Below the pieces are notes generated by a model, which worked only from the letters and a program-made list of their open reading frames with translations, had not been told where the DNA came from and searched no databases. DNA of 64,000 nt from assembly GCF_013085465.1 (NCBI RefSeq), contig NZ_CP049838.1:558001-622000 (forward strand). Direction: 5' to 3'. The position numbers and the translations under genes are program-made. Below are positions 34,654 to 49,930 of this stretch, in pieces (position 1 is the stretch's first letter; each line of letters begins with the position of its first letter). The stretch comes from Streptomyces asoensis. Its GTDB lineage: Bacteria; Actinomycetota; Actinomycetes; Streptomycetales; Streptomycetaceae.

Positions 34654-34689
34654 GTTGCTTTCTGCGCAACATGGTTCAGGTTGCGCAAC
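34654..34689. promoter_or_regulatory. Paired 17-bp operator, dimethylglycine/sarcosine operon
   Basis: Box 1 is GTTGCTTTCTGCGCAAC (34654-34670). Box 2 is GGTTCAGGTTGCGCAAC (34673-34689). Box starts are 19 bp apart. It lies 30 bp ahead of the dimethylglycine oxidase start and is one of eight copies of the pair between 34.6 and 49.9 kb. Confidence 0.8.
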
Positions 34690-34760
34690 TCAATGTGCCT
34701 GCCGCGGACAGGGGGTGTCAAGAGGTCCGGTGACGTCGGGAAACAGCCCGAAACGCGGCA

Positions 34761-34806
34761 ATGCCCGGCGGGCGGCGCACACAGGTGCACACCGCCCGCC
34801 GGGCAT
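34761..34806. terminator. Strong 15-bp stem terminator
   Basis: ATGCCCGGCGGGCGG (34761-34775) and CCGCCCGCCGGGCAT (34792-34806) pair perfectly with a 16-base loop, 24 bp past the stop of the betaine-binding-protein gene. It separates the transporter operon from the next operon. Confidence 0.75.
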
Positions 34807-34830
34807 CTCGGACCGTCCTGCCGACGTGGG

Positions 34831-35805
34831 TTACTTGATCCAGGCGTCGACCTTGGCGCGGTTGGCCTCCACCCACTTCTTGGCCGCCGCGTCCGGCGAC
34901 AGCTTGTCCACCGCGATGTACTTGGCCACGGTGTTCTGGTCGTCGTTCGTCCAGTTGAAGCTCTTCACCAGGTCGTAGGCCGGGCTGCCGGACTTGGCGA
35001 ACTTGGCGCTGACGATCTTGTCGAGGTCGTAGACGGGATAGTCGCAGGCGATCTTCGCCGCATCGGCGTCGCACCCCGTCGTGTAGGCGGGCAGATCAAC
35101 CTTGACCAACGGCACCTCGGACAGGAACCACTGCGGCTCGTAGAAGTAGCCGATCACCCATTCCTTGTTCTTCTCCGCCTTGCGGAAGGACTGGATGAGC
35201 GCGGTCTCGCTGCCCGCGTACACCACCTTGAAGTCCAGCTTCAGGTTCTTCACCAGCGCCTCGTCGTTGGTGACGTACGACGGGTCGCCGTCCAGCAGCT
35301 GGCCCTTGCCGCCGGACTCGGAGGTCTTGAACTCGGCCGCGTACTTGTTGAGGTTCTTCCAGTCGGTGATGTCCGGGTGCGCCTTGGCCAGCCACGGCGG
35401 CACGTACCAGCCGATGATGCCCTTGTTGCCGGTCGAGCCGGCCGCCACGGCGGTCTTCTGGTCGGTGATGTACTTCTTCTTCAGATCGTCGTGGCCCCAG
35501 TTCTCCAGGACGGCGTCGACCTCGCCCGTCCCGAAGCCCTGCCAGGCGATCTCCTCCTTCAGGTCCTTCTTGTTGACCGTACAGCCGAGGTCGTGCTGTG
35601 CGACGTAGGCGACGACCGCCGCGTCCGCCTCGTAGCCCACCCACGGGTTGACGGCGAGGTTGAAGGTGCCGCACTTGCCCGAGCTGCCCGAATCCGCGGA
35701 GTCGTCACCGACCTTCGCGCCGCCGCAGGCGGTGAGGGTCAGCCCGATGACAGTCACGACGGCTATGCCGGCCACGCCGGTTCTCTGTCGTACTTGTGTT
35801 GCCAT
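34831..35805 (-). CDS. Glycine betaine/choline ABC transporter, substrate-binding lipoprotein
   Basis: This 324-residue OpuAC-type binding protein begins with a lipoprotein signal ending in LTLTACGG (Cys becomes the lipid anchor). The mature part has FNLAVNPWVGYEADAAVVAYV, GTGEVDAVLENWGHD, YVPPWLAKAHPDITDW and FYEPQWFLSEVPLVKVDLP, with the aromatic residues that cage quaternary ammonium groups. It is the last gene of the operon betB-ATPase-permease-binding protein. Choline, betaine or both may be carried; the motifs alone do not decide. Confidence 0.93.
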   Translation of the reverse strand: MATQVRQRTGVAGIAVVTVIGLTLTACGGAKVGDDSADSGSSGKCGTFNLAVNPWVGYEADAAVVAYVAQHDLGCTVNKKDLKEEIAWQGFGTGEVDAVLENWGHDDLKKKYITDQKTAVAAGSTGNKGIIGWYVPPWLAKAHPDITDWKNLNKYAAEFKTSESGGKGQLLDGDPSYVTNDEALVKNLKLDFKVVYAGSETALIQSFRKAEKNKEWVIGYFYEPQWFLSEVPLVKVDLPAYTTGCDADAAKIACDYPVYDLDKIVSAKFAKSGSPAYDLVKSFNWTNDDQNTVAKYIAVDKLSPDAAAKKWVEANRAKVDAWIK

Positions 35806-35816
35806 GCTGGTGCTCC

Positions 35817-47999: not shown

Positions 48000-48035
48000 G
48001 TTGCTACTGACGCAATGCAGTGCGCCATAGGCAAC
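48000..48035. promoter_or_regulatory. Paired 17-bp operator, ferredoxin-reductase operon (distal)
   Basis: Box 1 is GTTGCTACTGACGCAAT (48000-48016). Box 2 is AGTGCGCCATAGGCAAC (48019-48035). It lies 109 bp ahead of the ferredoxin start and about 100 bp past the stop of the hydrolase gene, so it is a second copy for the same promoter. Confidence 0.75.
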
Positions 48036-48138
48036 ATAGCGAGTGGTTGCCCCACCCGTGCCGGGGACATGAAGGCGGCCCGCCTCCTCGGCCCGACGGG
48101 CCGGGAAACGGGCGCGTCGCCCTCTGCCCACCGGACGG

Positions 48139-48771
48139 TCAGAAGCCCTGGTCGATCCACTCCTGAAGGTGCGGAGCCTCGGCGGCGATGGTGGTCGTCT
48201 CCCCGTGCCCGGTGTACACGACGGTGTCCCGGGGCAGCGTGAGCAACCGGTCCCGGATCGAGTCGACGATGGTGGGGAAGTCGCTGTACGACCTTCCCGT
48301 CGCCCCCGGCCCGCCCGCGAAGAGCGTGTCGCCGCCGAAGAGCGCCGTCAGCGCCGGCACGTGAAGGCAGATCGCGCCGGGGGCGTGGCCTGGGGTGTGC
48401 AGCACGGCCAGGGAGACGCCGGCCACCTCGAGGACCTGCCCTTCGGCCAATTCGCCGTCGGGCGCGCGGTCGGGGTGGGTCTGCTTCCACAGCGGCAGGT
48501 CGTCGGGATGGAGCAGGACCGGGGCGCCGGTGCGCGCGGCGAGAGCGGGCGCGGCGTCGATGTGGTCGTTGTGGGCGTGGGTGCACACGATCGCCCGCAG
48601 GGTGCGGCCGCGGAGGGCTTCGGCGATGGCCTCGGCGTCGTGCGCGGCGTCGACGACGATCACCTCCTCGTCGTCCCCGATGATCCACACGTTGTTCTCG
48701 ACGTCCCAGGTGCCGCCGTCCAACGAGAACGTCCCCGAGGTGACCAGGTGTTCGATGCGGGCGCCGGTCAT
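48139..48771 (-). CDS. Metallo-beta-lactamase-fold hydrolase, probable S-formylmycothiol hydrolase
   Basis: This 210-residue glyoxalase-II-like hydrolase has the zinc motif THAHNDHIDAAPAL, a further His in VLHTPGHAPGAIC, Asp in LFGGDTLFAGG and the last His in VYTGHGETTTI. ATG 48769-48771 overlaps the stop of the formaldehyde dehydrogenase gene by one base, so the two are translationally coupled. In actinobacteria this arrangement accompanies mycothiol-dependent formaldehyde oxidation; hydrolysis of S-formylmycothiol to formate plus mycothiol is the likely role (inference from context and family). Confidence 0.87.
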   Translation of the reverse strand: MTGARIEHLVTSGTFSLDGGTWDVENNVWIIGDDEEVIVVDAAHDAEAIAEALRGRTLRAIVCTHAHNDHIDAAPALAARTGAPVLLHPDDLPLWKQTHPDRAPDGELAEGQVLEVAGVSLAVLHTPGHAPGAICLHVPALTALFGGDTLFAGGPGATGRSYSDFPTIVDSIRDRLLTLPRDTVVYTGHGETTTIAAEAPHLQEWIDQGF

Positions 48772-49859
48772 CAAAGGACCACCACCGAACGCAGGACCTC
48801 GCCGCCGTGCATCCGGTCGAAGGCCTTCTCCACCTCGTCCAGCCCGATGGTCTCCGTGACGAAGGCGTCCAGATCCAGCCGCCCCTGTAGATAGAGGTCG
48901 ATGAGCATGGGGAAGTCGCGGGACGGCAGACAGTCTCCGTACCAGGACGACTTCAGCGTGCCGCCGCGCCCGAAGACGTCCAGCAGCGGCAACTCGAGCT
49001 TCATCTCCGGGGTCGGCACGCCGACCAGGACGACCGTGCCGGCGAGATCGCGGGCGTAGAAGGCCTGCCGGTACGTCTCCGGGCGGCCCACCGCCTCGAT
49101 GACGACATCGGCGCCGAAGCCGCCGGTCAGCTCGCGGATCGCCTCGACCGGGTCGGACTGCCTGGAGTTGACGGTGTGGGTCGCGCCCAGCTTCCTGGCC
49201 GTGGCCAGCTTCCGGTCGTCGATGTCCACCGCGATGATCTTCGCCGCGCCCGCCAGTCGCGACCCGACGACCGCCGCGTCCCCGACGCCGCCACAGCCGA
49301 TGACGGCCACGCTGTCACCGCGTCCGACGTTCCCGGTGTTGATGGCGGCACCGATGCCCGCCATCACCCCGCAGCCGAGCAGTCCCGCGGCGGCCGCCGA
49401 CGCGGCCCGGTCGACCTTCGTGCACTGCCCGGCCGCCACCAGGGTCTTCTCCGCGAACGCGCCGATGCCCAGCGCCGGGGACAGCTCCTGCCCGGTCGAG
49501 GCGAGGGTCATCTTCTGCTCGGCGTTGTGGGTGTCGAAGCAGTACCAGGGCCGTCCGCGCCGACAGGCGCGGCACCGGCCGCACACCGCACGCCAGTTGA
49601 GGATGACGAAGTCGCCGGGCGCCACATCGGTGACCCCCTCCCCCACCGACTCCACGACCCCTGCGGCCTCGTGCCCCAGCAGGAAGGGGAAGTCGTCGTT
49701 GATGCCGCCCTCACGGTAGTGCAGATCGGTGTGACAGACCCCGCAGGCTTCGATCTTCACCAGCGCCTCGCCCGGTCCGGGATCCGGCACGATGATCGTT
49801 TCCAGGCTGACGGGGGCACCCTTGCCCCGCGCGACGACAGCACGGACCTGGTGCGTCAT
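48771..49859 (-). CDS. mscR: S-(hydroxymethyl)mycothiol dehydrogenase (mycothiol-dependent formaldehyde dehydrogenase)
   Basis: This 362-residue zinc MDR enzyme oxidises the formaldehyde-mycothiol adduct. ATG 49857-49859 is chosen because GAGGAG lies five bases ahead. Catalytic zinc ligands are in [16 protein letters not shown] and [11 protein letters not shown]; structural zinc in [15 protein letters not shown]. The NAD loop is [20 protein letters not shown]. The stretches [12 protein letters not shown] and [21 protein letters not shown] are typical of the mycothiol class. It would remove formaldehyde released by the Rieske oxygenase and the demethylating oxidases. Confidence 0.94.
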
Positions 49860-49894
49860 GGCCACTCCTCGGCTGGTACGAGACCTCGGCTGAT

Positions 49895-49930
49895 GTTGCT
49901 CATTACGACACGCATCTCACGTGCCGCAAC
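49895..49930. promoter_or_regulatory. Paired 17-bp operator, mscR-hydrolase operon
   Basis: Box 1 is GTTGCTCATTACGACAC (49895-49911), with a perfect left arm. Box 2 is ATCTCACGTGCCGCAAC (49914-49930), with a perfect right arm. The phase is 19 bp. It lies 35 bp ahead of the mscR start. It is the most degenerate copy, but the outer arms are intact. Confidence 0.65.

Follow-up and report, generated by a model that had tools for sequence, protein, structure and literature searches.

A candidate IclR-family regulon for choline and betaine breakdown in Streptomyces asoensis, marked by a 36-bp tandem operator

A 64,000-nucleotide stretch of Streptomyces asoensis DNA (contig NZ_CP049838.1, positions 558,001 to 622,000; hereafter the window), part of a 10.04-Mb single-contig genome, carries a cluster of genes for the uptake and breakdown of choline and betaine, among them a gene for an IclR-family regulator. 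An earlier note on this DNA had listed eight sites in the cluster at which two 17-bp boxes of the form GTTGC-N7-GCAAC begin 19 bp apart. Read directly, all eight 36-bp sites are present with exactly this arrangement, yet the set was incomplete: a ninth site, lying over the start of the regulator gene, had been missed. The nine predicted operators are as follows.

34654..34689, predicted operator, 30 bp upstream of dmgO, with the folD, glyA and sox genes downstream on the same strand
40395..40430, predicted operator, 26 bp upstream of betB (GTG 40368), with opuA, opuB and opuC following on the same strand
40539..40574, predicted operator, 13 bp upstream of purU (GTG 40588); top score of the window
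44198..44233, predicted operator between betA and iclR, 49 bp from betA and 66 bp from iclR
44273..44308, predicted ninth operator, covering TATAGT (44288-44293) and the iclR GTG start (44300), and reaching 9 bp into iclR
46304..46339, predicted operator, 66 bp upstream of the GbcA-like oxygenase gene (GTG 46237); weakest by model, 12.7 bits
47899..47934, predicted operator, 8 bp upstream of fdx (ATG 47890)
48000..48035, predicted second fdx operator, 109 bp upstream of the fdx start
49895..49930, predicted operator, 35 bp upstream of mscR (ATG 49859)

The genes that these sites precede, or that lie between them, are listed next.

32185..34623, minus strand, dmgO, dimethylglycine oxidase/dehydrogenase-like (flavin adenine dinucleotide oxidoreductase plus GcvT domains; Pfam DAO, FAO_M, GCV_T, GCV_T_C)
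34831..38878, minus strand, opuC, opuB and opuA, glycine-betaine-type ABC transporter (OpuAC, BPD_transp_1, ABC_tran)
38899..40368, minus strand, betB, aldehyde dehydrogenase, named by context (Aldedh)
40588..41469, plus strand, purU, formyltetrahydrofolate deformylase (TIGR00655 above cut-off)
41638..42474, minus strand, MTHFR-like protein, behind betA (MTHFR just under cut-off, 23.2 of 24 bits)
42478..44148, minus strand, betA, choline dehydrogenase (TIGR01810, 856.7 bits, cut-off 732.1)
44300..45097, plus strand, IclR-family regulator (PF09339 and PF01614 above curated cut-offs)
45107..46237, minus strand, GbcA-like Rieske oxygenase (Rieske, Ring_hydroxyl_A)
46368..47890, minus strand, ferredoxin reductase and Rieske ferredoxin (fdx)
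48139..49859, minus strand, MBL-fold hydrolase and mscR, S-(hydroxymethyl)mycothiol dehydrogenase (mscR: TIGR03451 above cut-off)

The regulator scores 55.9 bits with PF09339 (HTH_IclR, cut-off 22) and 150.5 bits with PF01614 (effector domain, cut-off 24); its best NCBIfam match is BhcR (NF045644), at 195.7 bits under the cut-off of 350. For the oxygenase (scored as 45107-46240), the best NCBIfam model is GbcA (NF058607), at 225.4 bits far under the cut-off of 670. Its GbcA role rests on context, as the name dmgO rests on domains, and neither assignment is firm.

With transcription units assigned by strand and spacing, each of the eight apparent unit starts in the 34-50 kb cluster carries an operator, and the ferredoxin has two. 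The claim that every promoter of the choline-to-serine pathway bears such a site therefore stands for this cluster. For folD, glyA and the sox (sarcosine oxidase) genes (25-32 kb), which lie behind dmgO on the same strand, a matrix scan of the window found no operator of their own. The gap between operator edge and gene start, previously put at 8-110 bp, is 8-109 bp for the eight listed sites, the ninth being the exception. Beyond position 49930 the matrix scan found no operator of this kind in the window; a gene for a DHA2-family (EmrB-like) efflux transporter (50270-51898), itself without an operator, adjoins the cluster there.

Scored against the 20 half-site letters (GTTGC/GCAAC/GTTGC/GCAAC), the eight sites match, in coordinate order, at 18, 16, 16, 18, 15, 17, 17 and 15. 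A matrix built from these eight gives the ninth site 24.3 bits, and the next score in the window, 10.4, belongs to a position that overlaps a known site. The consensus, GTTGCGTATnnCGCAACnnGTTGCGnnATACGCAAC, is a nested palindrome in which two 17-bp palindromes are offset by 19 bp. Across the 333 distinct sites found in 80 relatives' loci (see below) the two outer sets of nine positions hold 11.0 and 10.6 bits, against 7.4 and 6.0 bits for the inner nine, and the same lean towards the outer arms recurs in 109 distinct sites from wider loci, made symmetric. As read from these alignments, the operator is a single nested palindrome whose outer arms dominate. Its phase is rigid. Counting from each strong box, so that a pair of strong boxes contributes two counts, we find 896 counts for a spacing of 19 bp in the 80 loci, compared to 16 and 10 for spacings of 18 and 20 bp and a mean of 5.1 at 25-60 bp; in 50 wider loci the counts for 19, 18 and 20 bp are 182, 8 and 3, respectively (mean 1.3).

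The earlier note had judged this exact phase hard to obtain by chance, and simulation bears it out. At a threshold of at least 15 of the 20 half-site letters the window holds 10 positions, compared to 0.27 expected from 200 first-order Markov simulations, and at a threshold of at least 16 it holds 6, compared to 0.035 expected. The ten positions are the nine operators plus 36591, which falls inside the opuB coding sequence and is presumably a chance match. When each listed site is left out of the 36-bp matrix in turn, 4 to 8 positions of the 64-kb window outscore it, and these are always others of the eight, joined in two cases by the ninth site at 44273. A sequence-only model built from relatives' sites alone (36, in both orientations) recovers all nine sites in the window with no other match at E≤10 (18 rows, two per site). 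Applied to the 10.04-Mb genome at the same threshold, with 150 of 578 first-look candidates scored, it reports 8 distinct sites (16 rows); the gbcA site dropped out of this search, and all 8 sites lie in the betaine cluster rather than away from betaine genes. Note that the bare pattern of four half-sites with up to three mismatches finds five cluster sites in the genome plus 3729407, a position in long open frames that the model does not report, and that the reversed pattern, used as a control, matches 3 and 4 times on the two strands (7 in total), so that the bare pattern at three mismatches is not specific alone.

If the sites are functional, they should recur at the same promoters in relatives. 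A query with the IclR protein identified 263 relatives, and we retrieved the loci of the best 80, of which 79 carry a Streptomyces title. These 1.49 Mb contain 551 matches above 14 bits, 533 of which fall between -60 and 400 bp relative to a cluster-gene start. Considering only loci with at least 200 bp upstream of the gene, and keeping in mind that the divergent pairs betB/purU and betA/iclR share sites, the operator is present at dmgO in 40/40 loci, betB in 62/62, purU in 55/55, betA in 67/67, iclR in 80/80, fdx in 71/71 and mscR in 58/59. When orthologous sites are sorted into ten groups, conservation is 0.90-0.97 in nine of them and 0.69 in the distal fdx site, and the site is better kept than both of its flanks in nine of the ten. 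Even at the distal fdx site the first half-site is conserved at 0.97, compared to 0.69 for the whole site and 0.57 and 0.49 for the flanks; in the group of 44 relatives' distal fdx sites, three of the four half-sites are conserved much more strongly than the centres and the flanks. Sites are thus found at orthologous promoters throughout these loci and, as described below, beyond the genus, which together with the genome scan supports the earlier contention that the regulon can be defined from sequence.

There remain 18 other matches. Ten of these lie directly upstream of a gene for a BCCT-type betaine transporter (89-100% identical to the L018 copy), at the following positions.

L018:17675-17710, L008:17681, L011:17490, L020:17784 and L025:17527, operators at BCCT genes
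L031:17526, L059:17700, L060:17726, L061:16071 and L073:17665, operators at BCCT genes, continued

Seven further loci have BCCT matches without such a site. Of the rest of the 18, one operator (L045:19229-19264) precedes a gene for an FdhF/YdeP formate-dehydrogenase-like oxidoreductase, possibly a route for the formate made by PurU, and another (L067:14696-14731) precedes a dihydropteroate synthase gene, which suggests an added folate supply within the regulon. Far from its main cluster, genome G030 has another IclR gene (55% identity), accompanied by an opuABC transporter of its own and by operators (L105:5051-5086 and 9509-9544). In several Streptomyces genomes there are two or three close paralogues of IclR, in some cases just 12-40 kb apart (e.g. 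L106:5377-6171 and 17400-18185), and these may share operators.

The association between operator and pathway survives changes in gene order. In a second IclR group (~53-59% identity) and in other families the genes are arranged differently, and operators are still found before dmgO, betB, fdx, betA, mscR or the regulator. With a threshold of more than 22 bits and a range of -70 to 350 bp from the start of a cluster-gene homologue, 64/64 sites in 20 family loci and 37/43 in 26 loci outside the family lie at such a homologue; gene labels here are approximate, since soxB and dmgO have a domain in common, and L097 and L098, both among the 20 family loci, were picked by their operators. One family locus and five of the 26 outside the family have no site above 22 bits, and locally shuffled sequence (4.2 Mb) has no position above that threshold. 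The most scattered case is Nonomuraea gerenzanensis, where one operator directly precedes dmgO, at a distance of 14.5 kb from an IclR gene of 61% identity. A second lies about 10 bp ahead of gbcA, 7.4 Mb off by the coordinates of the record, or 4.5 Mb in the opposite direction should the record be circular, as it states. The 24-kb stretch around the Nonomuraea IclR gene itself (L144) contains no site. Single operators also occur upstream of an MTHFR-like gene on another contig of G312 (L140:9340-9375) and at the start of a glyA homologue (L119:8109-8144). An Arthrobacter plasmid record gave no model match at E≤3; matrix sites of 28.3 and 20.5 bits lie upstream of its 51% IclR gene. The betB-purU region, searched against a plasmid collection, gave no match.

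Does the operator travel with the regulator gene? Among 150 genomes of the family, surveyed for IclR at E≤1e-60 and for the operator model at E≤1, IclR turns up in 47 genomes, every one of which also has the operator. The operator is present in 49 altogether, and thus in 2 of the 103 genomes without IclR (Fisher p 5e-37, relatedness ignored). Of these two, G074 has its IclR gene in broken pieces, and for G062, a draft genome, the retrieved contig has operators and shows no IclR. At the G074 locus (L098:7623-18153) the homologues of betA, betB, dmgO, iclR and soxB are each split between frames while the operators are intact; the split frames are likely the product of a low-quality assembly (76% complete). 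In the wider class, where 224 genomes outside the genus were considered (246 minus 22 of the genus), a model match is found in 18/26 genomes with IclR compared to 16/198 without (Fisher p 1e-11, again ignoring relatedness). The recognition helix of the regulators, VHKST[AV][FS]RL, hardly varies among 52 proteins that are 44-100% identical, four of them from loci without an operator above 18 bits (L123, L127, L136, L138), and it differs in six other IclR proteins from the same loci. The link between IclR and operator is therefore supported by co-occurrence and by the conserved recognition helix.

IclR-family tetramers on adjacent operator sites have a structural model in TtgV, which is a drug-efflux regulator, unlike the protein considered here. 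TtgV (PDB 2xrn/2xro) was found as a distant sequence match (58.6 bits). The form of the operator also has published counterparts: tandem IclR palindromes 18-22 nt apart were described in 94 of 181 orthologous groups, with a published GTT-11-AAC motif for group 1 (Suvorova and Gelfand 2021, PMC8222616). As in the account given there, the sites are 17-bp palindromes with GTT...AAC ends, arranged in tandem (centres 18-22 nt apart there, 19 here) and placed at the regulator's own and adjacent operons, with tetramer binding deduced. Set against the group 1 consensus GTTYCRYW3RYGRAAC, the ends, C5, R6 and Y7 match the commonest letters here, whereas letter 4 is G in 81-88% of cases instead of Y and letter 14 is mostly C instead of R; spacing is moreover fixed at 19 and the outer arms are stronger. 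The main text of that study does not contain the words betaine, choline or sarcosine, and its supplementary tables could list this orthologous group.

We consider it highly likely that the nine sites are operators through which the IclR protein encoded at 44300-45097 controls these cluster genes, and the operator with its usual IclR neighbour very probably represents a real control circuit, widely conserved and of a general type that is already known. Direct binding, the tetramer, repression over activation and the effector are all things we infer. Palindromes set 19 bp apart would place two dimers, that is one tetramer, on nearly the same face of the DNA, a picture based on published family behaviour (PMC8222616) and the solved TtgV entries. 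Bound over core promoters, the regulator would keep the cluster off: uptake by opuABC would be repressed, as would the oxidation of choline to glycine (betA, betB, gbcA with ferredoxin and reductase, dmgO with the genes behind it) and the disposal of methyl groups, whether as formaldehyde (mscR and MBL) or as folate-bound one-carbon (C1) units (purU and the MTHFR-like protein). IclR would also repress its own gene. Within the ninth operator, TATAGT stands six bases before the iclR GTG, each of its letters being kept in at least 90% of 79 distinct sequences from relatives, and a site of this type is centred 10 bp from the iclR start in the 80 loci. Autorepression of a leaderless iclR message would be the simplest reading of this arrangement. 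Repression is also suited by the operators that appear to touch the fdx and purU leaders, and we regard it as the probable main mode.

A number of observations weigh against parts of this proposal. The gbcA site is the least kept of all, being above threshold in 41/71 loci, and in its orthologous group the left flank is conserved better than the site itself (0.94 vs 0.91). Some operator matches in the family survey are weak (E 0.58 to 0.97 in G013, G019 and G037), and not every match was located. Outside the genus, 8 of the 26 genomes with IclR have no model match; six of these were inspected, and weaker matrix matches of 22.0-25.2 bits lie near three of the regulators (L129, L130, L133). Eight of the 16 genomes that have a match and no IclR come from one family (f25) of 1.2-2.2-Mb genomes, and of two among the 16 that were inspected, one (L141) shows no cluster gene and the other (L142) just a 32% ABC-ATPase match. 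No sigma-70 consensus promoter turned up when 34500-50000 was scanned (mean of 1.0 in shuffles), so that the overlap of operators with promoters rests mainly on the TATAGT at iclR; a terminator-like match at 47934-47918 sits inside an operator. Finally, when pocket residues are compared with E. coli IclR by hand-counted positions on an alignment, three of five oxygen-binding positions are changed (Gly160, Ala161 and Asp212 to Ser, Ser and Thr) and serines 239 and 241 are kept, and the effector therefore cannot be read off.

The changed residues leave glyoxylate or pyruvate unsupported as effector. Trp140 is kept in 51/52 IclR proteins of the group, but since it is also present in 4/6 others it provides no argument for betaine. 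Release of the cluster would fall to some pathway compound, and our best guess is one of the N-methylated glycines, for instance glycine betaine or dimethylglycine.

How else might these patterns be explained? Imagine that IclR were mainly an activator, or dual like BhcR, repressing itself from 44273 while an inducer switched on the catabolic operons through upstream operators. Several operators are centred 48-128 bp before starts, and a position 50-130 bp upstream would suit activation equally well, a further point against repression. BhcR, the best NCBIfam match (below cut-off), is needed in vivo for expression of its target, according to the published account (PMC11323563). The operators nearest to starts (fdx at 8 bp, purU at 13 bp, iclR by overlap), on the other hand, would cover the leader or the -10 and so suit repression. 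This alternative challenges just the mode of control, its odds overlapping with those of the proposal as a whole, and we consider it fairly unlikely.

More fundamentally, some other regulator might read the operators, with the IclR gene merely a neighbour. The gene for the oxygenase, gbcA, is found in 48 of the 150 family genomes and tracks the operator just as closely as iclR, and presence alone can therefore not separate the pathway from the regulator. Two single cases seem to favour the regulator as the operator's partner: G005 has IclR and operator and no gbcA, and G125 has betA and neither IclR nor operator. Given, in addition, a site at the iclR start in all 80 loci and an operator form similar to that of the GTT-11-AAC group described for the IclR family, with its tandem spacing of 18-22 nt (PMC8222616), we find a different reader of these sites very improbable. 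That the sites reflect chance, or a general inverted repeat without function, is harder still to credit. Second boxes are indeed weak in several sites, the coding stretch at 36591 also reaches 15 of 20 letters, and the reversed pattern has its seven genomic matches, but the excess over expectation in the window, together with conservation and fixed phase in relatives, leaves next to no room for this explanation.

Regulation of choline and betaine catabolism is familiar from proteobacteria, where GbdR, SouR and BetI belong to the AraC and TetR families and act on unrelated operators. Closer in kind, BhcR of Paracoccus denitrificans is likewise an IclR-family regulator of a carbon-assimilation pathway, although the published description concerns another pathway and one candidate palindrome, and BhcR has Gly160, Ile161 and Asp212 (IclR numbering) where Ser151, Ser152 and Thr203 stand here, the alignment being read by eye (PMC11323563). 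GylR of Streptomyces clavuligerus, too, is described as an IclR-family protein that represses both the gene encoding it and a catabolic operon, but its operator is an 18-bp palindrome of other sequence and its regulon that of glycerol (PMC9732521). In two marine Streptomyces, a gene of the IclR family has been reported ahead of proP, a proline/betaine transporter gene, in an account that describes no regulon (PMC6676996). Among the open-licence papers that our literature searches listed, as far as titles and abstract openings go, we found none on an IclR regulator of actinobacterial betaine catabolism. It appears well supported, on present sequence evidence, that this is a new betaine/C1 regulon within an already published type of tandem IclR operator.

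What might such a circuit be for? There is, in our estimation, an even chance that it constitutes an ancient regulon spread across the class Actinomycetes. A single tetramer of the IclR type would then recognise a rigid 36-bp nested palindrome, its outer arms dominant and its phase fixed at 19 bp, and would place N-methyl oxidation under joint control with all of methyl-group disposal (formaldehyde, formate, folate supply). Such a regulon would have been kept even where its genes are scattered over megabases, and in relatives it would have recruited a BCCT betaine transporter (ten loci) and, in isolated instances, dihydropteroate synthase, glyA, an MTHFR-like gene and an oxidoreductase resembling formate dehydrogenase. 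A defined operator allows regulon calls in unannotated genomes and predicts pathway genes elsewhere, as in Nonomuraea; should induction be confirmed, it could also be used as a betaine-inducible promoter part. For soil actinobacteria, Streptomyces included, the IclR protein is a candidate regulator of choline and betaine breakdown, with the handling of C1 units tied to the same switch.

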